Positions 5,341-64,000 of a stretch of 64,000 nucleotides of DNA are shown here, piece by piece. The stretch is taken from assembly GCA_006742785.1 (NCBI GenBank), contig AP019755.1, forward strand, positions 1,736,001 to 1,800,000. The letters are read 5' to 3'. Position 1 is the stretch's first letter; the number at the start of each line of letters is the position of its first letter. The notes under the pieces are model-generated. The model did no database searches, was not told the origin of the DNA, and was given only the letters and a program-made list of their open reading frames with translations. The DNA is from Nitrosomonas stercoris. GTDB taxonomy: Bacteria > Pseudomonadota > Gammaproteobacteria > Burkholderiales > Nitrosomonadaceae. Both the position numbers and the translations under genes were made by a program.

Positions 5341-6060
5341 TCAAAGGTTAAGTTGCATATTTTGTTCGGCTGCTGAAGGCTCGAAGCCGGATGTTTCATA
5401 ATAACGAAAGATTGCGTCAATAACTTGATCAGGCTCATCAACGATCTGAATCAGATCCATATCTTCTGGTGAAATGCAGCCCTCTTGCACGAGTACCTGG
5501 CGAAACCAAGTGATCATTCCTTGCCAAAAGTCCGAACAAACCAGAATAATCGGCATTTTACGGGTTTTCCCGGTTTGGACCAAGGTTAATGCTTCCATGA
5601 GTTCATCTAATGTACCAAAGCCACCAGGCATAACGACATAAGCTGTGGCAAACTTGACAAACATATATTTTCTGGCAAAAAAATGATGAAAGGTTTGGCT
5701 GATGTCCTGATAGGTATTGTGTCGTTGCTCATGAGGGAGTTGGATATTCAGTCCAATACTGGGGGATTTTCCGTAAAAAGCGCCTTTGTTGGCAGCTTCC
5801 ATAATGCCGGGCCCTCCGCCAGATATAACTGAGAAGCCCGCATCAGATAGTTGTCTGGCAATGGCTTCAGTCAGTATGTAATACGGATGATCAGGATGCG
5901 TTCTGGCGCTACCAAAAATACTGACCGCCGGTTGAATGCATTCGAGTCGTTCGGTGCCCTCAACAAATTCTGCCATAATACCAAAAACCCGCCATGATTC
6001 TCTGGCAGACCAGGGTTTTTCCAGGGAAAGGGCATCTCCCAACTTAGTTTGCAAACTCAT
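5341..6060 (-). CDS. LOG-family nucleotide phosphoribohydrolase (TIGR00730)
   Basis: A 239-residue Rossmann-fold protein of the Lonely Guy/YvdD family, which in characterised members cleaves the ribose-5'-phosphate from nucleoside monophosphates such as cytokinin ribotides or AMP. The diagnostic motifs are SGGGPGIMEAANKGA (about 80-94) and the PGGFGTLDELMEALT catalytic signature. The start ATG at 6060 faces the polA start only 15 bases away, so the two genes are divergent with interlocked leaders. Substrate cannot be told from sequence. It may be co-transcribed with DUF2782 and thrB. Confidence 0.88.
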   Translation of the reverse strand: MSLQTKLGDALSLEKPWSARESWRVFGIMAEFVEGTERLECIQPAVSIFGSARTHPDHPYYILTEAIARQLSDAGFSVISGGGPGIMEAANKGAFYGKSPSIGLNIQLPHEQRHNTYQDISQTFHHFFARKYMFVKFATAYVVMPGGFGTLDELMEALTLVQTGKTRKMPIILVCSDFWQGMITWFRQVLVQEGCISPEDMDLIQIVDEPDQVIDAIFRYYETSGFEPSAAEQNMQLNL

Positions 6061-6075
6061 AAAGGTCCTTATTTG

Positions 6076-8781
6076 ATGAAAACACTCGTACTGGTTGACG
6101 GTTCTTCCTATTTGTATCGTGCATTTTATGCACTGCCTGATTTGCGTAATCGTTTTGATGAGCCTACGGGTGCAGTTTATGGCGTGCTGAATATGCTACG
6201 TCGCTTATACAAGGAATACCGGCCAGATTATAGCGTGTGTGTGTTTGATGCAAAAGGCAAAACATTCCGGGAGGATATTTATCCGCAATATAAAGCCAAT
6301 CGTCCCCCGATGCCGGATGATATGGTGAGTCAGATTGCGCCTTTATATGATTGTATTCGTGCGATGGGCTGGCCACTGCTGGTGGAAGAAGGCGTTGAGG
6401 CAGATGATGTGATTGGTACGCTGGCGAAGCGCGCTCGGGATGAGCAGATGCAGTGCATTATATCGACGGGTGACAAGGATATTGCGCAACTGGTTGGGCC
6501 GGGCGTGCAGTTAATCAACACCATGAATAGCGAGTCGCTGGATGAAGCGGGCGTGCTACAGAAATTTGGAGTACTGCCAACACAAATTGTCGATTATTTG
6601 GCATTGGTAGGCGATAGTGTGGATAACGTGCCTGGTGTGAAGAAGGTGGGGCCTAAAACAGCGGTGAAATGGTTGAATCAATATGGATCATTGGATAACT
6701 TAGTGGCACATGCAGACGAGATTAAAGGTGTGGTAGGTAACAACTTGCGTGCTGCTTTGGATTGGCTGCCAACTTCAAGAAAATTATTAACGATCAAATG
6801 TGATGTGCCGCTTGCTGCAGATTGGCAGGATTTGGTTGCGTTACCTTCCGATACAGCCAAGTTGACTGAGTTGTATGAGCAGCTTGAATTCAGAGGCTGG
6901 TTGCGTGAACTGAGCCAAACTTCTACTGAAATGGCGGCTGTTCAGCAAGCAGAAGTACAAGCTCCAAATCCAGACGAGCGTGATTATCAAGTTGTTTTGA
7001 CAACTCCTCAGCTTGAAGAATGGGTGCTGCGATGTGAATCTGCTGAATTGGTGTCTATTGATACTGAAACCACCAGCTTGAATTCAATGGAGGCTGAGCT
7101 GGTAGGTATTTCACTGTGTATCGAGCCGGGCCAGGCTGCCTACATACCATTGGCACATAGTTATCAGGGAGTGCCGGAACAACTGGACCGTCAACAAGTA
7201 TTGCAACGGCTTAAACCGTGGTTAGAGGATAGCGACAAATCCAAGGTAGGGCAGAATCTGAAATATGATCGACATATATTTGCCAACTACGAAATTGCGC
7301 TTAATGGTATTGAGCATGATACGTTGTTGCAATCGTATGTAGTGGAATCTCATTTGCCACATAATCTTGACAGTCTGGCGCTACGTCATTTGAATATCAA
7401 GACAGTTAATTATGATGAAGTAACGGGCAAAGGTGCGAAACGGATTGGGTTTGAGCAAGTAGAGATTCGGCAGGCAGGCATTTATGCTGCTGAGGATGCA
7501 GATATTCCACTGCGTTTGCATCATTTGCTATTTCCAAGCATTCACCAAAATGCGCAGCTTGATTATATTTACCAACAGATTGAGATGCCGTTGCTGGAGG
7601 TACTATTTCAAATAGAACGAAATGGTGTGCTGTTGGATACCGATCTTTTACAAGCACAAAGTGTTGAGTTGACACAGCAACTAATTGAGCTGGAACAGCA
7701 GGCACATGCAGCGGCGGGGCATGCTTTTAATCTGAATTCCACCAAGCAGATTCAGGAAATTTTATTTGAGCAGCAGAAGTTACCCGTCATCAAAAAAACA
7801 CCAAAGGGTGCACCTTCCACCAATGAAGCGGTTTTGCAGCAGCTTGCACTGGATTATCCGTTACCCAAAATTTTGCTGGATTATCGTGGTTTGGCGAAGC
7901 TTAAATCGACCTATGTTGATAAATTACCGCAAATGCTGAATAAACAAACTGGCCGGGTGCATACCAATTATGCACAAGCTGTTGCGGTTACGGGGCGTTT
8001 GGCGAGTAATGATCCTAATTTGCAAAATATTCCGGTGCGAACGCCGGAAGGGCGGCGGATTCGTGAAGCGTTTATTGCGCCTGATAGTTGGCATATTGTG
8101 TCGGCTGATTATTCGCAGATTGAGCTACGTATCATGGCACATATTTCTCAGGATGCAGGCTTAATCCGAGCTTTTTCTGAAGGAATAGATGTGCATCGTG
8201 CTACTGCGGCGGAAGTATTTGGTGTTGCGGCTGATCAAGTCAGCGCGGAGCAACGTCGTTACGCCAAGGTGATTAATTTTGGCTTAATTTATGGCATGTC
8301 TGAATTTGGCTTGGCTTCTCAATTGGGGATTGAACGCAGTGCAGCGCGTACATTTATAGAGCGTTATTTTGCGCGCTATCCAGGTGTGGCTGAGTATATG
8401 CAACGCACTCGGGAGCGGGCAAAACAAGATGGTTATGTTGAAACAGTACTGGGGAGAAGACTGCAATTACCGGATATTCATAGCAAACAGCATAACCGTA
8501 GAATGGGTGCTGAGCGAGCGGCAATTAATGCACCAATGCAAGGTACAGCGGCAGATATTATTAAATTGGCCATGATTGCTGTACAGCAGTGGCTGCAGAC
8601 AGAGCAATTGAACAGCAAGTTGATTATGCAGGTGCATGATGAATTGGTATTAGAAGTTGCTGAGAATGAACTATCGCTCATCCAGGAGAATCTACCAAGG
8701 TTAATGGAAAATGCGTTCAAATTGGATGTGCCACTAAAGGTTGAGATTGGCTTCGGAAAAAATTGGGATCAAGCACATTAG
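6076..8781 (+). CDS. polA: DNA polymerase I
   Basis: Repair and Okazaki-fragment polymerase of 901 residues. Domains in order: N-terminal 5'-3' exonuclease (VLVDGSSYLYRAFYALP; GVEADDVIGTLA; GDKDIAQLV; GDSVDNVPGV), 3'-5' proofreading domain that keeps the acidic SIDTETTSLNS motif and so looks active, and the polymerase domain with ADYSQIELRIMAHIS (motif A), RRYAKVINFGLIYGMS (motif B) and MQVHDELVLEV (motif C). The ATG at 6076 is chosen because AAAGG stands 8-12 bases before it and the first domain starts at once; the upstream frame from 6049 overlaps the divergent LOG start. Confidence 0.97.
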   Translation: MKTLVLVDGSSYLYRAFYALPDLRNRFDEPTGAVYGVLNMLRRLYKEYRPDYSVCVFDAKGKTFREDIYPQYKANRPPMPDDMVSQIAPLYDCIRAMGWPLLVEEGVEADDVIGTLAKRARDEQMQCIISTGDKDIAQLVGPGVQLINTMNSESLDEAGVLQKFGVLPTQIVDYLALVGDSVDNVPGVKKVGPKTAVKWLNQYGSLDNLVAHADEIKGVVGNNLRAALDWLPTSRKLLTIKCDVPLAADWQDLVALPSDTAKLTELYEQLEFRGWLRELSQTSTEMAAVQQAEVQAPNPDERDYQVVLTTPQLEEWVLRCESAELVSIDTETTSLNSMEAELVGISLCIEPGQAAYIPLAHSYQGVPEQLDRQQVLQRLKPWLEDSDKSKVGQNLKYDRHIFANYEIALNGIEHDTLLQSYVVESHLPHNLDSLALRHLNIKTVNYDEVTGKGAKRIGFEQVEIRQAGIYAAEDADIPLRLHHLLFPSIHQNAQLDYIYQQIEMPLLEVLFQIERNGVLLDTDLLQAQSVELTQQLIELEQQAHAAAGHAFNLNSTKQIQEILFEQQKLPVIKKTPKGAPSTNEAVLQQLALDYPLPKILLDYRGLAKLKSTYVDKLPQMLNKQTGRVHTNYAQAVAVTGRLASNDPNLQNIPVRTPEGRRIREAFIAPDSWHIVSADYSQIELRIMAHISQDAGLIRAFSEGIDVHRATAAEVFGVAADQVSAEQRRYAKVINFGLIYGMSEFGLASQLGIERSAARTFIERYFARYPGVAEYMQRTRERAKQDGYVETVLGRRLQLPDIHSKQHNRRMGAERAAINAPMQGTAADIIKLAMIAVQQWLQTEQLNSKLIMQVHDELVLEVAENELSLIQENLPRLMENAFKLDVPLKVEIGFGKNWDQAH

Positions 8782-57224: not shown

Positions 57225-57797
57225 GTGTCACTGATTGAAACAACTCAAAAATTACGCTGGCAGTTCGAGCAGCTCGTCAACCGTCCTGATTGGGCGTTGT
57301 TAGTACGCTACGAATTGTTGCCCCAGCATCGGGAGTGGAGTTATCGCATTGGCAGATGGTTACGTGTTGTAGGATTAAGTCGTTCTTATTATTTTCGACA
57401 GCGATGGTCAGCCAGTTTAAAACACACAAACAATGTTGCTACTGCTACTGCTACTGCTACTGCTACGTTATTAATATGGGCAGAAGGAGTAGAGTTGCAG
57501 CAAATTCGTGAATATTGTCATGGCTTTAAACAGCACCTGGCACAGCATAAGAATTTCATACCTGTTTTGGTAACGGATGTCGCTGATTTTACTTTTTATT
57601 CTCATTTAGGATGGCTAGTGGAATATTTGCCTGAAATGAGCAATGGAATAAATAAAGAAGATTTGTCAGCATCTTATCGAGAGAAAAAACGCCAATATCT
57701 GGCTTGGCGCTACCGAGATGCGCTGGTTGTACCTGTGGCCGCAGGAATAGCGAGTCCGCAAGAGTGGCAGATGATCTTACAGGTGGGTTTCAAATAA
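57225..57797 (+). CDS. Unknown protein at the head of the glycan cluster
   Basis: I do not recognise a family with a known function. About 190 residues, soluble-looking, Trp/Tyr/Arg-rich, with the segments LLVRYELLPQHREWSYRIGR, VLVTDVADFTFYSHLGWLVE and QYLAWRYRDALVVP. An Ala-Thr repeat (ATATATATAT) at about residues 72-81 comes from a 6-base repeat. The start is uncertain: GTG 57225 has GGGGG seven bases upstream; TTG 57189 gives 12 more residues. Three bases separate it from the deacetylase gene, so it belongs to that unit. It may be an accessory factor for glycan synthesis (inference from context). Confidence 0.7.
   Translation: MSLIETTQKLRWQFEQLVNRPDWALLVRYELLPQHREWSYRIGRWLRVVGLSRSYYFRQRWSASLKHTNNVATATATATATLLIWAEGVELQQIREYCHGFKQHLAQHKNFIPVLVTDVADFTFYSHLGWLVEYLPEMSNGINKEDLSASYREKKRQYLAWRYRDALVVPVAAGIASPQEWQMILQVGFK
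57438..57466 (+). repeat. Hexanucleotide tandem repeat (GCTACT)
   Basis: Four copies of GCTACT followed by GCTAC, inside the coding frame of the preceding entry. Gain or loss of a unit changes the protein by two residues without a frameshift. Confidence 0.9.
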
Positions 57798-57800
57798 TTA

Positions 57801-58805
57801 ATGTTTGGTAAGAATCGTTATTTATTGCTAACTGTTGATACGGAAGCCTTACCCAAACGCGCTGCAAAAGAGCATGTTAAGCGTTTGATGTGGGGAGAGC
57901 ATGCAGAGGGTACAGCTGGTATTCGTGAGATGGCAGCAATTGGTGATGAGTTTGGCGCCAAGCACATTTACTTTGTCGATTTGTGCGGTGCCTACACTCA
58001 CCTAGATGAAGTCAGTGAAGTGATCCGCTGGCTGGATGAGGCCGGGCAAGATGTGCAACTGCATACGCATCCGGAATATCTACCTAAATGTTTCTGGGAA
58101 GAGCATGGCTATGCCATTAGACCACGATTAATGAATTTATATGTGGATGGTGATCGTGCCACATTTGTGATTCAGCATTTTTCTGATTTGCTTTCCGCAA
58201 TAACACATAAACCTGTACTGGCTCATCGCGCCGGCTCCTTCCGTTGGAATGCTCATACAATTCACGCGCTTCACGCTGCAAATATACCACTTTCGTTTAA
58301 TAACTCCATGCGGGCATTACATTTAGGGCAATGTGTTTACAGTGTTAAAACGAACCAACCATTTACTTGGTCGAACGGTATTATTGAAGTGCCTATGACA
58401 GAAAAATCGATCTTTCCTATGTTAGGCAAAGATCAATGGTGGTCGCGTTTAACTTACCCTGAATCTGACTATTTCCATTTTAGCCCTTGGTGGGGGCCGC
58501 TACTGTTTAATACGGTAAGTGATAGCCCAGACTTTGCTGTATTACTGTTGCATTCCTGGTCTTTGCTGTATTGGGATGAGAATGGGCATGGTGAGTACAG
58601 AGATGATGCGCGCGTTGAAGGTTATCGCCAGTTTATACGGCGACTAAGTAAAGATTATGACATTATTACCACCGCAGATTTTCTGGATTTACATGCTCGA
58701 GGGATGATTACCACTCCTGATCAGGTAGATTTGGCTTTAGCAGAATGGCAACCGCCGCCTAAAAAGAAGAAAAAACCAAAGCACAAAGCGAAAAATGAGC
58801 GCTGA
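57801..58805 (+). CDS. Polysaccharide-deacetylase-like (NodB-fold) protein
   Basis: A 334-residue protein with the carbohydrate-esterase family 4 pattern: LLTVDTEALP (catalytic Asp and Asp-containing metal site), QLHTHPEYLP (His-x-His-x-x) and LAHRAGSFRWN (Arg-containing motif). The tail is a run of Lys and Pro (PPPKKKKKPKHKAKNE). No signal peptide, so it probably acts in the cytosol on a glycan precursor, or on a sugar substrate that is not secreted. It overlaps the next gene by 11 bases. Confidence 0.8.
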   Translation: MFGKNRYLLLTVDTEALPKRAAKEHVKRLMWGEHAEGTAGIREMAAIGDEFGAKHIYFVDLCGAYTHLDEVSEVIRWLDEAGQDVQLHTHPEYLPKCFWEEHGYAIRPRLMNLYVDGDRATFVIQHFSDLLSAITHKPVLAHRAGSFRWNAHTIHALHAANIPLSFNNSMRALHLGQCVYSVKTNQPFTWSNGIIEVPMTEKSIFPMLGKDQWWSRLTYPESDYFHFSPWWGPLLFNTVSDSPDFAVLLLHSWSLLYWDENGHGEYRDDARVEGYRQFIRRLSKDYDIITTADFLDLHARGMITTPDQVDLALAEWQPPPKKKKKPKHKAKNER

Positions 58806-60102
58806 TCTATTACAGTCTTGGGTAGTAGAACCGTGGTTGACATTGAGTCGCCAGGTGACTTGTCGTGTCCTTGCTCAGCAATTGCGTACAACAGCAGCTG
58901 TGCAGCCAGCTTATGTGCCACGGTCACGTAGCTTATTGTATGTTGCTGCGAGTACTCGCCCTTACCACATTAGTGGCTATACCACGCGTACGCATGAAGT
59001 GATACAAGCTTTGTGTGAAGCTGAGATTCAAGTGTATGCGCATACGCGTCCTGGTTATCCGTGGGATCGCAAAGATCGGTTATGTGATACCACAGAGACT
59101 GAAACAGCAGTAAATCATGTCCGTTATTATCATGCGAAGTATCCTGCAAATAACCGTCCAGTATTACTATATGCTTTGCAGGGAGCAAAAACGGTAGCTG
59201 AGTCAGCTCAACGACATCGGGTCGCTGCAATTCATGCTGCTTCCAATCATGTGAACGCATTGCCAGCGTTGCTGGCTGCTCGACGGTTAGGAATTCCTTT
59301 TCATTATGAATTGCGTGGTTTATGGGAGTTGACTCGTATATCGCGCCAACCTGATTTCAAGGATTCACAAGCTTATCAGCAAGGATTGGCGTTGGAGGCG
59401 TTGGTTGCTCGCCATGCAGATCAATTGTTTGTGATTTCAGAACAGCTAGGATGTTATGCCCAAAATAACTGGAGTATTTCACCAGAGCGTATCAAATTGT
59501 TACCCAATTGCGTGAATCCGGAAACTTTTCCAGTAGCTGATTCCGCTCTGGTAGAACCAGATGTAATCGGCTATGCAGGTTCGCTAATCGTATATGAGGG
59601 GCTAGATACACTACTGGAAGCAGTGGCTATTTTGGCAGACCAAGGTAAAGTGGTGCAGGTACGCATTGCAGGTGATGGGGAGGCGCGTCCCGAATTAGAA
59701 GCGTTGGCGCGACGTTTGAGATTGGGGCAGCAGGTGCAATTTCTGGGTCGTATTCTACCCAATCAAGTACAAGCGATGATTGCGCGCTGCGCTTTGGTTT
59801 GCATTCCGCGTAAACCTTATACCGTATGTGAAATCGTACCTCCAATTAAGTTAGTGGAAGCGCTGGCCATGGGTAAGCCAGTGATTGTGCCAGATTTGCC
59901 TGTATTTCGGGATGAAATGGGTAATCAACCAGCAGGTTGGTTTTTTCAGGCTGGGAATGTGAAGGATTTAGCGCGAGTGGCTGCTGAAGCATTGAGTCAT
60001 CCAGATCATTTGGGATCACTGGGATTACGGGCACGCAATTATGTTGTGTCGCAACGTAATTGGCAGAAATTTGTTGCTCCAATCGCTGAATTACTATCGT
60101 AG
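58795..60102 (+). CDS. Family 4-type glycosyltransferase
   Basis: A 435-residue GT-B enzyme. Family segments: GYTTRTHEVIQALCEA near the start, ELRGLWELTR, LPNCVNPETF, GYAGSLIVYEGLDTLLEAVA and EALAMGKPVIVPDLPVFRDE, the last holding the donor-binding Glu residues. Probably builds a glycan chain on a nucleotide-sugar donor; donor and acceptor are unknown. Starts inside the deacetylase gene (11-base overlap) and is followed by the CgeB-like gene after 44 bases. Confidence 0.88.
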   Translation: MSADLLQSWVVEPWLTLSRQVTCRVLAQQLRTTAAVQPAYVPRSRSLLYVAASTRPYHISGYTTRTHEVIQALCEAEIQVYAHTRPGYPWDRKDRLCDTTETETAVNHVRYYHAKYPANNRPVLLYALQGAKTVAESAQRHRVAAIHAASNHVNALPALLAARRLGIPFHYELRGLWELTRISRQPDFKDSQAYQQGLALEALVARHADQLFVISEQLGCYAQNNWSISPERIKLLPNCVNPETFPVADSALVEPDVIGYAGSLIVYEGLDTLLEAVAILADQGKVVQVRIAGDGEARPELEALARRLRLGQQVQFLGRILPNQVQAMIARCALVCIPRKPYTVCEIVPPIKLVEALAMGKPVIVPDLPVFRDEMGNQPAGWFFQAGNVKDLARVAAEALSHPDHLGSLGLRARNYVVSQRNWQKFVAPIAELLS

Positions 60103-60146
60103 ATATGCTGATCAGGAAAAATAATGGGTTGTTTTGAGGAAAAAGC

Positions 60147-61232
60147 ATGATTGGGCGTGTCATTCGCACAATAGGCTCACTTTATTACAAACATCCAGTT
60201 TCATCGGAAGATACTGAGCCAGAAGGGTCATTTGCCAAGCTCAAGATTGCGTTAGTAGCGGATCATTTCACGACAGATTGTTTGTCTATGGAGTGTCGAG
60301 TGATGAATCTGACACCATCCAATTATCTGGAGATACTTAATTCCTGGCAGCCAGATCTGGTATTTGTAGAATCCGCTTTTCATGGTGTGCGAGGGAGTTG
60401 GCGGTATGAACTGGCCAAACAACCCCGTTGGCTACGTTTGAAGCAGCCACGTACCATTTTCAAACTAGTGAAACATGCTCGCTCCCGAGGTATTCCCACC
60501 GTATTTTGGAACAAGGATGATGGTGCTTTTTTTGATGCTTTTATCCATCTGGCAGCAGCGTTTGATTTTGTTTTTACAACGGATGAGTCATGTTTGGAGC
60601 GTTATCGTCATGCATTACCAGCAAATGTACCTGCTAATGTATTGATGATGCCTTATCAACCGCGTTTCCATAGTTTTGAAGGATTTCATTTTCGTAGCCA
60701 TTCAGTCTGCTTTCTAGGGAGTTATTATCGACGTATTTTGAATGAGCGTCGGCGTTTTCTGGATATGGTATTCCATGTAACCGAGCAATCTGGAATGAAA
60801 TTACATATTTTTGATCGCAATCATGACCGTTTATCAAACTTCATGGAATTTCGTTTTCCTAAACATAAACATTTGGAATTGCATCCTCGAGTGGCGCATC
60901 GCGAAACTGCTCACGTTTATAAAAATCATGTGGTGTCATTGAATGTTAATTCAGTGACCGGCTCCGACACCATGGTGTCGCGTCGTCTGCTGGAGATATT
61001 GGCGTGTGGTGGTATTGCCGTGACCAACCCCAGTCGTGCAATTGAGCGTCATTTTCGAGATTTTTGTCACGTGATCAATACGCCGGAGCAAGCAAGCGAG
61101 CTGTTTGTGAGATTACGCAATGGCCCGTCGACAGATGATATGGCGCGAGCCGAAGCCGGAGCGCGCTATGTGCGTGCACATCATACTTGGGCGCATCGCT
61201 TGAGTGAATTGAGCAATATTGTGAAATTCTAG
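60147..61232 (+). CDS. CgeB-like glycosyltransferase family protein
   Basis: A 361-residue protein with a Rossmann-like layout and the family features of CgeB and DUF3880-type glycosyltransferases: IALVADHFTTDCLSMECRVM, WQPDLVFVESAFHGVRGSWR, TVFWNKDDGAFFDAF, CFLGSYYRRILNERR and RRLLEILACGGIAVTNPSRA. GAGGAAAAAGC precedes the ATG. Function in glycosylation is inferred from family and neighbours. Eight bases separate it from the GT2 gene. Confidence 0.82.
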   Translation: MIGRVIRTIGSLYYKHPVSSEDTEPEGSFAKLKIALVADHFTTDCLSMECRVMNLTPSNYLEILNSWQPDLVFVESAFHGVRGSWRYELAKQPRWLRLKQPRTIFKLVKHARSRGIPTVFWNKDDGAFFDAFIHLAAAFDFVFTTDESCLERYRHALPANVPANVLMMPYQPRFHSFEGFHFRSHSVCFLGSYYRRILNERRRFLDMVFHVTEQSGMKLHIFDRNHDRLSNFMEFRFPKHKHLELHPRVAHRETAHVYKNHVVSLNVNSVTGSDTMVSRRLLEILACGGIAVTNPSRAIERHFRDFCHVINTPEQASELFVRLRNGPSTDDMARAEAGARYVRAHHTWAHRLSELSNIVKF

Positions 61233-61240
61233 GTATCGCG

Positions 61241-62704
61241 ATGTTGCTCATTTTTTCCTATGCTGTTCAAGCTGTTTTTTTGCTTGTGGTGGTGTGCTTT
61301 ATTTTGTATGCACTGCTAGAGTTACGTGTTCTTGGGATTTCCCGTCAGGTGGAAAGGCATAAGCTAACAGAGTTAGCGACCCATTTGCCAACTTTAGCAA
61401 ATTGGCCTCGTGTCTCTGTACTGCTACCCATCTATAACGAATCAGCAGTAGTGGTACGCCTGATTGATGCGGTTTGTCGGTTAGATTATCCAACTTCTGC
61501 GCTTGAAATTTTAGTGCTGGATGATTCAACGGATCATACTTCGGCGCTTGCTCAGGAACGAGTAGCTTATTATGCACAACGAAAAATCCCGGTGCATTAC
61601 GTTAAACGTTCGACCAACAAAGACTATAAAGCAGGTAATTTGCTCAATGGTATTCGCCAATCATCAGGACAGTTTTATGTCATTTTTGATGCAGATTTTG
61701 TGCCACCAGAAGATTTTTTGCTCAAAACCATTCCCTATTTTCAGGATCCGCAATTGGGTTTCTTGCAAACCGGCATCGGCTATGAAAATCGTGACGCATC
61801 TTTTCTGACACGCTTTCAGGCAAAAGAAATGGGACATCAGCAGTATGTCACGGTTGGCTTAAGTGCAGATGGAGATATGGCCTCTTTGTCAGGCAGTTCT
61901 TGTGTGTGGCGTAAAGCATGTGTTGAATCGTTGGGCGGGTGGAATGCTTCCACTATCACTGAAGATGTCGATTTGGGATATCGCGCCCAGTTTGGCAATT
62001 GGAAATACGCTTATATACGCGATGTGGTATCCATGTCAGTCTTGCCGGAAACAACCAGTGCATTTCGTGTACAACGAGAACGTTGGGGCAGAGGGTTAAT
62101 TCATAGCGCATTTAAGCATGCACGCCTCATGTTCCAACAGCAAATGTCGCTCATGAAGCGCTTGCATGCAATTGCTATGATGTTTTCATCATTGCTGCTA
62201 GCCTCTATTTATGTGCTGTTGCTGTTGTGTTTACCACTTAATTATTTAATTGATTTGCATAATTCTGAAATTCAGTGGGTAGCGTGGCTATTTTTTGGTT
62301 TTGTCGCATTATGGGGCTTGAATAATATTTTTGCCGCTCGCAAAGGGATGCGTGCTGAAGAACAACAAAGTATTTTGCGCACGCTATGGGAAACTTATCT
62401 GTACGTTGCTTTGTTTTTGCCCATGGCTTGGTATTACTTTGTTGGTGGCGTGCGTGCATTGCTGGGTATTCATGGTGATTTCCATCGCACGCCCAAAGGT
62501 GAGCACAAGGAAAAAGTGCGGAGGCCGCCAATTCACAGGATTTTATGGTGGGGAGAGGGTTTTTCGTTTAGCTATGCGGCGGTAACACTATGGGCTGCGG
62601 TGCAGCAGGGCAATTATTTTCTGATTCCAATTGGTGTGACAGCGTGTGTGGGGTTTGGCATGATGCTGGTTGGTTTTTGGCGTGAAGAACACGCAATTAA
62701 ATAG
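61241..62704 (+). CDS. Membrane family 2 glycosyltransferase, cellulose-synthase-like
   Basis: A 487-residue processive-type GT2 with an N-terminal membrane helix (AVQAVFLLVVVCFILYALLE), catalytic motifs VLLPIYNESAVVVRLID, LVLDDSTDHT, FDADFVPP (DxD), TITEDVDLGYR (ED) and VQRERWGRG (QxxRW), and three or four C-terminal helices. It lacks the PilZ domain and the length of BcsA. It can polymerise or extend a glucan-like or glucosamine-like chain. It stands between the CgeB-like gene and the phosphotransferase gene. Confidence 0.9.
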   Translation: MLLIFSYAVQAVFLLVVVCFILYALLELRVLGISRQVERHKLTELATHLPTLANWPRVSVLLPIYNESAVVVRLIDAVCRLDYPTSALEILVLDDSTDHTSALAQERVAYYAQRKIPVHYVKRSTNKDYKAGNLLNGIRQSSGQFYVIFDADFVPPEDFLLKTIPYFQDPQLGFLQTGIGYENRDASFLTRFQAKEMGHQQYVTVGLSADGDMASLSGSSCVWRKACVESLGGWNASTITEDVDLGYRAQFGNWKYAYIRDVVSMSVLPETTSAFRVQRERWGRGLIHSAFKHARLMFQQQMSLMKRLHAIAMMFSSLLLASIYVLLLLCLPLNYLIDLHNSEIQWVAWLFFGFVALWGLNNIFAARKGMRAEEQQSILRTLWETYLYVALFLPMAWYYFVGGVRALLGIHGDFHRTPKGEHKEKVRRPPIHRILWWGEGFSFSYAAVTLWAAVQQGNYFLIPIGVTACVGFGMMLVGFWREEHAIK

Positions 62705-62719
62705 TCACTGGAACATGTG

Positions 62720-64000
62720 ATGGTTGAAGCAAGTTTCATAGCTGTCCTTGTAGTTGCTGGAATAGGATTGGCATTATCCATATTGATTGAGCGCTTAATG
62801 GTGCCGCGATCTACGTTGGCAAGACCTTGGGCGGCCTGGGTGTTGCATGGTGGCTTATGGCTGGTATTTTATGCCTTGATGACGTTAATTCTAGGACGCC
62901 CGTGGTTCTCAGCTGCGATTGTATTAGCGCTTATTTTGATGGTGGTATTGGTCAATAATGCTAAATTTAACTCATTGCGCGAACCCTTTGTTTTTCAGGA
63001 TTATGAATATTTTACGGATACTATGCGCTATCCACGCCTCTATATTCCTTTCCTGGGTTGGTGGAAATTTCTTGGGGCCGCCGCTGGTTTTGTTCTAGCG
63101 ATATCTATTGGTTTATGGGGAGAATCTGTTCCTGATCAACGCTTTATACTATCTGGCCAAGCCGGAGGTATTTTACTGCTGCTGATGCTGAGTATATCGT
63201 TGTTATTATTGGGAGATTACCAACGGTTGGCTGTTACTTTTGACCCGCAGCAAGATGTAGTTAAGTTAGGGTTATTAGCTAGCTTCTGGCGTTATGCGCA
63301 AGCAGAAAGAAAATTTCCCAAGACACCAGCTACATTTGAATATACTACTTTGCCTGAACGGCAGCCGAATGAATTACCGCATTTAGTTGCTGTGCAAAGT
63401 GAATCTTTTTTTGATCCACGTTCACTCTATGCCGGTATTCAGCCAGACATATTAGCGCAGTTTGATCGCCTGGGAGCAGATGCCTTATTGCGTGGCAAAC
63501 TTAAAGTACCGGCTTGGGGTGCTAATACAGTACGTACTGAATTTGCTTTTCTCTCCGGTATTAATGAGCAAACCTTAGGTGTGCATCGTTTTAACCCTTA
63601 CCGAGCATTAGCCGCGGGCTGGGAAATTGCTTCTATTGCTTCTTTCTTGAAAAGAATGGGTTATTACACTATTTGTATCCATCCTTATCCAGCCAGTTTT
63701 TATCGAAGAGCTCGTGTATATCCCCGTTTAGGATTTGATGAATTCCTGGATATTCGCTTATTTACCGATACCATGCGTTTCGGCCCATATACTGGTGATG
63801 CAGCAGTTGCCGAGCAAGCTAGTGCTTTATTGGCAACCGCAAAAAAGCCGTTGTTCATCTTTATTATTACCATGGAAAATCATGGCCCACTACATCTGGA
63901 ACAAGTATCACCAGCGGATATTGGGCAGCTATATTTAACACCGCCTCCTGCAGGGTGTGATGATTTGACTATTTATTTACGCCATTTGCGAAATGCTGAT
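62720..64000 (+). CDS. LTA-synthase-like sulfatase-fold phosphotransferase (3' end outside window)
   Basis: The frame opens at ATG 62720 and runs to the window end (427 codons visible). It has four or five N-terminal membrane helices (from FIAVLVVAGIGLALSILI onward) and then an alkaline-phosphatase/sulfatase domain: VAVQSESFFDPRSLYAG (metal-binding Glu), WGANTVRTEFAFLSGINEQT (Thr nucleophile region) and IFIITMENHGPLHLE (His). Lipoteichoic-acid synthases and MdoB-type proteins move phosphoglycerol onto glycans. In this Gram-negative setting, and next to glycosyltransferases, it may decorate the cluster's glycan with a phosphoglycerol-like group (inference). Confidence 0.88.
   Translation, partial: MVEASFIAVLVVAGIGLALSILIERLMVPRSTLARPWAAWVLHGGLWLVFYALMTLILGRPWFSAAIVLALILMVVLVNNAKFNSLREPFVFQDYEYFTDTMRYPRLYIPFLGWWKFLGAAAGFVLAISIGLWGESVPDQRFILSGQAGGILLLLMLSISLLLLGDYQRLAVTFDPQQDVVKLGLLASFWRYAQAERKFPKTPATFEYTTLPERQPNELPHLVAVQSESFFDPRSLYAGIQPDILAQFDRLGADALLRGKLKVPAWGANTVRTEFAFLSGINEQTLGVHRFNPYRALAAGWEIASIASFLKRMGYYTICIHPYPASFYRRARVYPRLGFDEFLDIRLFTDTMRFGPYTGDAAVAEQASALLATAKKPLFIFIITMENHGPLHLEQVSPADIGQLYLTPPPAGCDDLTIYLRHLRNAD

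Follow-up and report, generated by a model that had tools for sequence, protein, structure and literature searches.

The six genes at the end of the window, the 64,000-nucleotide stretch of Nitrosomonas stercoris DNA that was analysed, are well supported by sequence comparison as the glycan-assembly segment, together with the RkpI-type phosphotransferase, of an rkp/wcb-type capsule pathway that depends on an ABC transporter. With reasonable confidence, we explain them as part of a variant rkp-type capsule, in which four of the genes would replace KpsC/KpsS and the RkpI-type enzyme would act on the lipid anchor. This explanation builds on results that were established directly: the gene content and its homologies, the single locus of the relatives, co-loss, exclusion of KpsS and separate inheritance of the lipid set.

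Extent and composition of the gene cluster

Six intact open reading frames are packed on the + strand from window position 57225 to 64264, the final 264 bases being outside the window:

57225-57797, +, head gene; 190 aa, no transmembrane segment, no family match
57801-58805, +, NodB-like deacetylase; 334 aa, predicted cytosolic, modelled CE4/NodB fold
58795-60102, +, GT4 glycosyltransferase; 435 aa, Pfam Glycos_transf_1 (E 7e-24)
60147-61232, +, CgeB-like GT1_2 glycosyltransferase; 361 aa, Pfam Glyco_trans_1_2 (E 1e-15)
61241-62704, +, membrane GT2; 487 aa, Pfam Glyco_tranf_2_3 (E 4e-32)
62717-64264 (L002:8717-10264), +, RkpI-type GacH/LtaS-like phosphotransferase (LTA-like protein); 515 aa, Pfam Sulfatase (E 5e-33)

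The intergenic gaps are 3, -11, 44, 8 and 12 bases in order, which reproduces the six genes, their families and the tight packing (gaps under 50 bases) given in the initial annotation. The proposed extension to the right showed that the operon ends with the LTA-like gene at 64264, after which IS elements follow. Promoter-like sites (14 observed, 17.2 in shuffles) were not above expectation; 14 terminator-like sites were observed versus 7.7 in shuffles. Just past the operon, L002:10332-14038 (window 64332-68038) contains IS transposase genes as well as fragments of a TonB-dependent receptor and of an alginate-export-like porin. In the following, the four-gene set deacetylase-GT4-GT1_2-GT2 is called the module, and the genome of the window (Nitrosomonas, 2.38 Mb, two contigs) is called G000.

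The capsule locus in relatives and its dispersal in G000

In relatives, the gene order is deacetylase-GT4-GT1_2-GT2-SDR-LTA. Genome G033 holds the whole locus on one contig (C17, 25-75 kb) in the order PKS-AONS-Wza-KpsM-KpsT-KpsE-GalU-GTs-GT28-head...deacetylase-GT4-GT1_2-GT2-SDR-LTA, flanked by rnr-rlmB and exbD-tolQ-tonB. The module is located in or beside the PKS/AONS/Wza/KpsM/KpsT/KpsE locus in G032 and G033, and in G014 the two are found on separate contigs. Outside the family, G184, G401 and plasmid p2 of Caballeronia insecticola hold module, lipid genes and exporter together. The interpretation of the cluster as a surface-glycan cluster was upheld. The other sugar genes vary between module loci (WecB/WecC; UGD-GT28; Glyphos_transf).

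In G000, an exporter/PKS/AONS block with open genes (C1:1706844-1721450) precedes the module by 72 kb; its exporter locus (L048) encodes Poly_export, ABC2_membrane, ABC_tran and KpsE-like proteins. The absence of an export set, as initially annotated, therefore holds for the direct neighbourhood of the module but not for the genome, since this capsule export locus ends 14.5 kb left of the window edge. The SDR ortholog (70% identity, open) was found at C1:413872-414612 beside rnr-rlmB. At this site rlmB abuts exbD (L093:10092-11383), whereas G033 has the entire capsule locus between those genes. As module, exporter block and SDR occupy three sites in G000 and one locus in relatives, the locus has been dispersed in G000. 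An orphan pathway without export is ruled out by the single locus of the relatives and the exporter block of G000. A repeat-unit polymerase was not found beside the G000 exporter, where the gene present encodes a coiled-coil protein; a full polymer in G000 is thus only a possibility.

The coiled-coil protein (L096:579-2447, G000:C1:1719579-1721450) adjoins KpsE and carries the motif EENELLLLQLHQVQEELE. Its N-terminal region is common to giant glycosyltransferases of module-carrying capsule loci. An LpxC-like deacetylase gene is located between PKS and AONS (L058:29736-30662, L060:13772-14686, L083:6468-7379) in Caballeronia, Paraburkholderia and G401 and was not seen in the Nitrosomonas loci.

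Relation to known capsule loci

The rkp-1 region of Sinorhizobium meliloti has the order RkpU (export protein), RkpA (PKS), RkpG (AONS), RkpH (SDR), RkpI (by position) and the KpsS-like RkpJ. The PKS of G000, encoded outside the window, has 2531 aa with the domains KS-AT-DH-ER-KR-ACP and matches S. meliloti RkpA along its length at 35% identity. The AONS-like enzyme shares 52% identity with RkpG, and the SDR, which adjoins the LTA-like gene in relatives, 25% with RkpH. Synthesis of a specific lipid carrier has been ascribed to the rkp-1 region (PMC4881576), and Nitrosomonas rkp clusters and Burkholderia wcb clusters were described as homologous capsule loci (PMC3908369). Because rkp/wcb loci have already been described and the gene content matches, the pathway type is known. 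The cluster can consequently no longer be listed as an undescribed pathway, given that the same genes occur in the relatives' capsule locus of this described kind (PMC3908369, PMC4881576). Membership in a known polysaccharide locus, named in the initial annotation as counter-evidence, was found in part, namely as the rkp/wcb-type locus of the relatives.

Among the closest known systems is Sinorhizobium rkp-1 (rkpU-A-G-H-I-J), the region for the K-antigen lipid carrier, which likewise contains a PKS, an AONS, an SDR, an RkpI-type phosphotransferase and a polysaccharide export protein. In contrast, none of the six Nitrosomonas genomes searched encodes RkpJ/KpsS, and the deacetylase-GT4-GT1_2-GT2 set is missing from the S. 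meliloti locus. The Burkholderia wcb locus, with a WcbR/RkpA-type PKS and capsule synthesis and export genes, is likened by description only (PMC3908369). The group 2/3 Kps capsules of E. coli also use a KpsM/KpsT/KpsE ABC exporter with a Wza/KpsD-like outer protein, whereas the system described here has no KpsC/KpsS and includes genes for a PKS-derived lipid. The Vi antigen of Salmonella Typhi, likewise an ABC-dependent capsule, also lacks KpsC/KpsS and has a lipid anchor of its own (PMC12220298), but the anchor genes differ.

Other Nitrosomonadaceae have a separate pair of PKS and AONS genes (L118-L133) with no capsule exporter; 12 further genomes of the family encode an RkpG-like AONS at 50-53% identity. 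In the 8 of these genomes that were examined, genes for an exporter, an SDR, RkpI or the module were not found near the pairs, which argues for a different cluster, probably of another natural product.

Properties of the encoded proteins

The deacetylase had no Pfam match even at E=1. Its AlphaFold model, of moderate quality (pTM 0.68), gave 34 PDB matches with E<=0.001 in Foldseek, nearly all of which are CE4/NodB proteins; the best match had an E value of 5e-7, ArnD matched at 1e-6 and PdaC was among the matches. According to the model, the protein has the CE4/NodB fold. Residues D13, H88 and H90, candidates for the Asp-His-His metal site of such enzymes, are invariant in 4 aligned rows, with H-x-H spacing versus the canonical HxxxH. 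No transmembrane segment was predicted, and the protein is predicted to be cytosolic. Identity ranges from 57 to 79% across Nitrosomonas, G184, G401 and Caballeronia. A contig scan with the deacetylase returned a single locus, that of N. eutropha Nm57 (79% identity), the nearest named relative found.

GT4 is 59-73% and GT1_2 63-83% identical in the other loci that carry the module. The GT2 protein has about 5 transmembrane segments and a QRERW motif of the QxxRW type known from processive synthases; it stays below the NCBIfam cut-offs for CelA (154 of 699 bits), PgaC (108 of 422 bits) and NodC. Assignment of GT4 to an XrtA/PEP-CTERM locus was rejected, since it scored 191 bits and the cut-off of TIGR04063 is 442. 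The same applies to the cluster as a whole, as the XrtA-like locus, which has a separate deacetylase, is located at C1:2205-2225k. G000 also has an XrtA/PEP-CTERM-type exopolysaccharide locus with a NodB paralog, in addition to a Wza/Wzc-type locus (L056, L057).

The nearest solved relative of the LTA-like protein in the PDB is GacH, a phosphoglycerol transferase. E229, T271, H389, D452 and H453 align with the catalytic Glu, Thr, His and Asp-His of GacH; with these positions kept, the protein is a putative GacH-like phosphoglycerol transferase. A true LtaS was excluded (30 bits, NCBIfam LtaS cut-off 970). Streptococcal GacH and Gram-positive LtaS are likewise sulfatase-fold phosphoglycerol transferases with aligned catalytic residues, but the protein described here is Gram-negative and encoded in a lipid-anchor gene neighbourhood. 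Comparison with the ORF that occupies the place of rkpI in S. meliloti, which is unannotated in the record and was assigned by its place between RkpH and RkpJ, gave an hhalign probability of 99.7% (E 7e-26). No assigned reaction of RkpI was found in the publications consulted. The catalytic domain is predicted to be periplasmic, which would be awkward for a step preceding cytosolic glycan assembly.

Co-loss and separate inheritance of lipid and glycan genes

The LTA-like gene occurs in 6 of 125 Nitrosomonadaceae genomes, 5 of which have close relatives of the deacetylase. An open module goes together with retention of the capsule-type AONS (75-100% identity) and of the third Wza: the same four Nitrosomonas genomes have all three. 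This AONS and the third Wza are missing in N. eutropha Nm57 (G015), where the deacetylase and LTA-like genes are frameshifted (L014:246-1222 and 5957-7449), and in G016, where a remnant of 67 codons was found at L046:7722-7916. The module is decaying in the N. eutropha lineage.

In the order-level sample, all eight non-Nitrosomonas genomes with the LTA-like gene (E<=7e-42) have it beside SDR, PKS, AONS or KpsS, while the deacetylase is present in only two of them. Caballeronia and G401 group with Paraburkholderia, which lacks the module, in the LTA tree as well as in the AONS tree. Monophyly of the module carriers was rejected for both (p-AU 5e-35 and 9e-72, respectively). Since the LTA tree matches that of AONS and not the distribution of the glycan genes, the LTA-like gene belongs with lipid synthesis. 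Its tracking of the lipid-making AONS suggests that the LTA-like protein probably acts on the lipid anchor and not in glycan decoration, a reading to which we give a slight preference. The initially annotated phosphoglycerol-decorated glycan is weakened, because inheritance of the gene follows the genes of lipid synthesis instead of those for the glycosyltransferases. The exporter trees contained no clean clade of carriers and were uninformative due to long branches; the KpsT identities alone differ (72-77% versus 40-41%).

Mutual exclusion of module and KpsC/KpsS

The KpsC/KpsS family PF05159 is absent in 6 of 6 Nitrosomonas genomes, in G184 and in Caballeronia plasmid p2 (only the plasmid was searched). 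G401 has one PF05159 protein, encoded elsewhere than the module locus. KpsS is present in none of the 8 module loci versus all 9 loci which have the LTA-like (RkpI-type) gene but no module. This mutual exclusion is based on about three independent lineages of module carriers. Fisher's exact test gave 4e-5 by loci and 0.008 by lineages (three versus seven), values which are descriptive only, as the loci are related. A 2025 review describes KpsS and KpsC as conserved in ABC-dependent capsule systems and names Vi as the exception (PMC12220298). Based on the exclusion, the module is tentatively proposed as a linker standing in for the Kdo linker of KpsC/KpsS, to which we assign a little under an even chance. 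A second, gene-defined exception to KpsC/KpsS with a conserved replacement set would be a concrete target in the search for a new capsule linker.

Proposed pathway and alternative explanations

From their families, the RkpA-like PKS, the RkpG-like AONS and the RkpH-like SDR are likely to make a long-chain amino-alcohol lipid. The LTA-like protein would then move phosphoglycerol, probably from phosphatidylglycerol, onto this lipid or its first sugar, and the resulting phosphoglycerolipid anchor would resemble the lyso-PG found on E. coli capsules. On this anchor, GT2, GT4 and GT1_2 may build a short glycan, within which the cytosolic deacetylase would free an amino sugar, as suggested by the mutual exclusion. 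Variable glycosyltransferases would add the repeat polymer in relatives, and KpsM/T/E with the Wza-type protein would export it; this export step and the membership in the pathway, taken jointly, are highly probable. The most specific form of the proposal is distinctly more speculative: these ABC-exported capsules would form a class independent of Kdo, in which the module would build a new amino-sugar linker on a polyketide-derived, sphinganine-like lipid and the RkpI/LTA-like enzyme would add a phosphoglycerol headgroup as a lyso-PG mimic. With RkpI recognised as a phosphotransferase of the GacH type that shares the inheritance of the lipid genes, the rkp lipid carrier becomes directly testable in its structure.

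The main alternative is that the module is responsible for the capsule's repeat unit instead of a linker, and that phosphoglycerol is attached to the exported polymer by the LTA-like protein in the manner of GacH, its nearest solved relative. Three glycosyltransferases could build a repeat unit, and no other glycosyltransferase was found in the exporter locus of G000. However, module identity stays at 57-83% between loci that differ in their other sugar genes, and the LTA-like gene accompanies the lipid genes in both occurrence and phylogeny, and is also found in loci without the module; we therefore regard this alternative as unlikely. Still less probable is that the six genes are passengers in a genome which, after the split of the locus, no longer makes a capsule. 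Such decay would fit the missing GT28 and repeat-unit glycosyltransferases near the G000 exporter, the relocated SDR, the IS elements at the operon border and the fate of the locus in G015 (frameshifted) and G016 (nearly gone), but the six genes, PKS, AONS, SDR and the exporter genes are all uninterrupted in G000.

We consider a synthase-dependent exopolysaccharide, which GT2 would polymerise and secrete and which the deacetylase and the LTA-like protein would modify, to be very improbable. GT2 does resemble BcsA/PgaC by profile and has the QRERW motif and several transmembrane segments; its scores are, however, far under the curated cut-offs for CelA and PgaC, the deacetylase is predicted to be cytosolic, and all relatives of the module except the decaying copies of G015 are found in ABC-transporter capsule loci. 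The variant rkp-type capsule thus remains the preferred explanation.

The head gene

The head protein had no family match in Pfam even at E=1, and no fold match at E<=0.001 was obtained with its low-confidence model (pLDDT 58). A weak likeness to the Rossmann half of a glycosyltransferase was not counted as evidence. In relatives, the head gene is located directly 3' of a GT28/MurG-like gene. A homologue with 42% identity is present in G401 (L082:10012-10560), directly 5' of the deacetylase, and the order UGD-GT28-head-deacetylase in this genome indicates that the head gene is a real part of the locus where it occurs. It is probably an accessory part of glycan assembly, judging from this context. 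Co-occurrence of head and LTA-like genes, suggested initially as a check, was seen in G401 and the Nitrosomonas genomes that carry the module, but a head homologue was not found in the G184 and Caballeronia loci.

Window positions 57437-57466, inside the head gene, consist of 5 perfect copies of the 6-base repeat TGCTAC. The repeat encodes an Ala-Thr stretch missing in relatives and, being in frame, is no classical on/off switch. Repeated GT28 and head fragments, some of them broken, were observed in G033 and G014 (L015, L044, L053, L054); they are located among IS elements and toxin-antitoxin genes, a sign of recurrent duplication.
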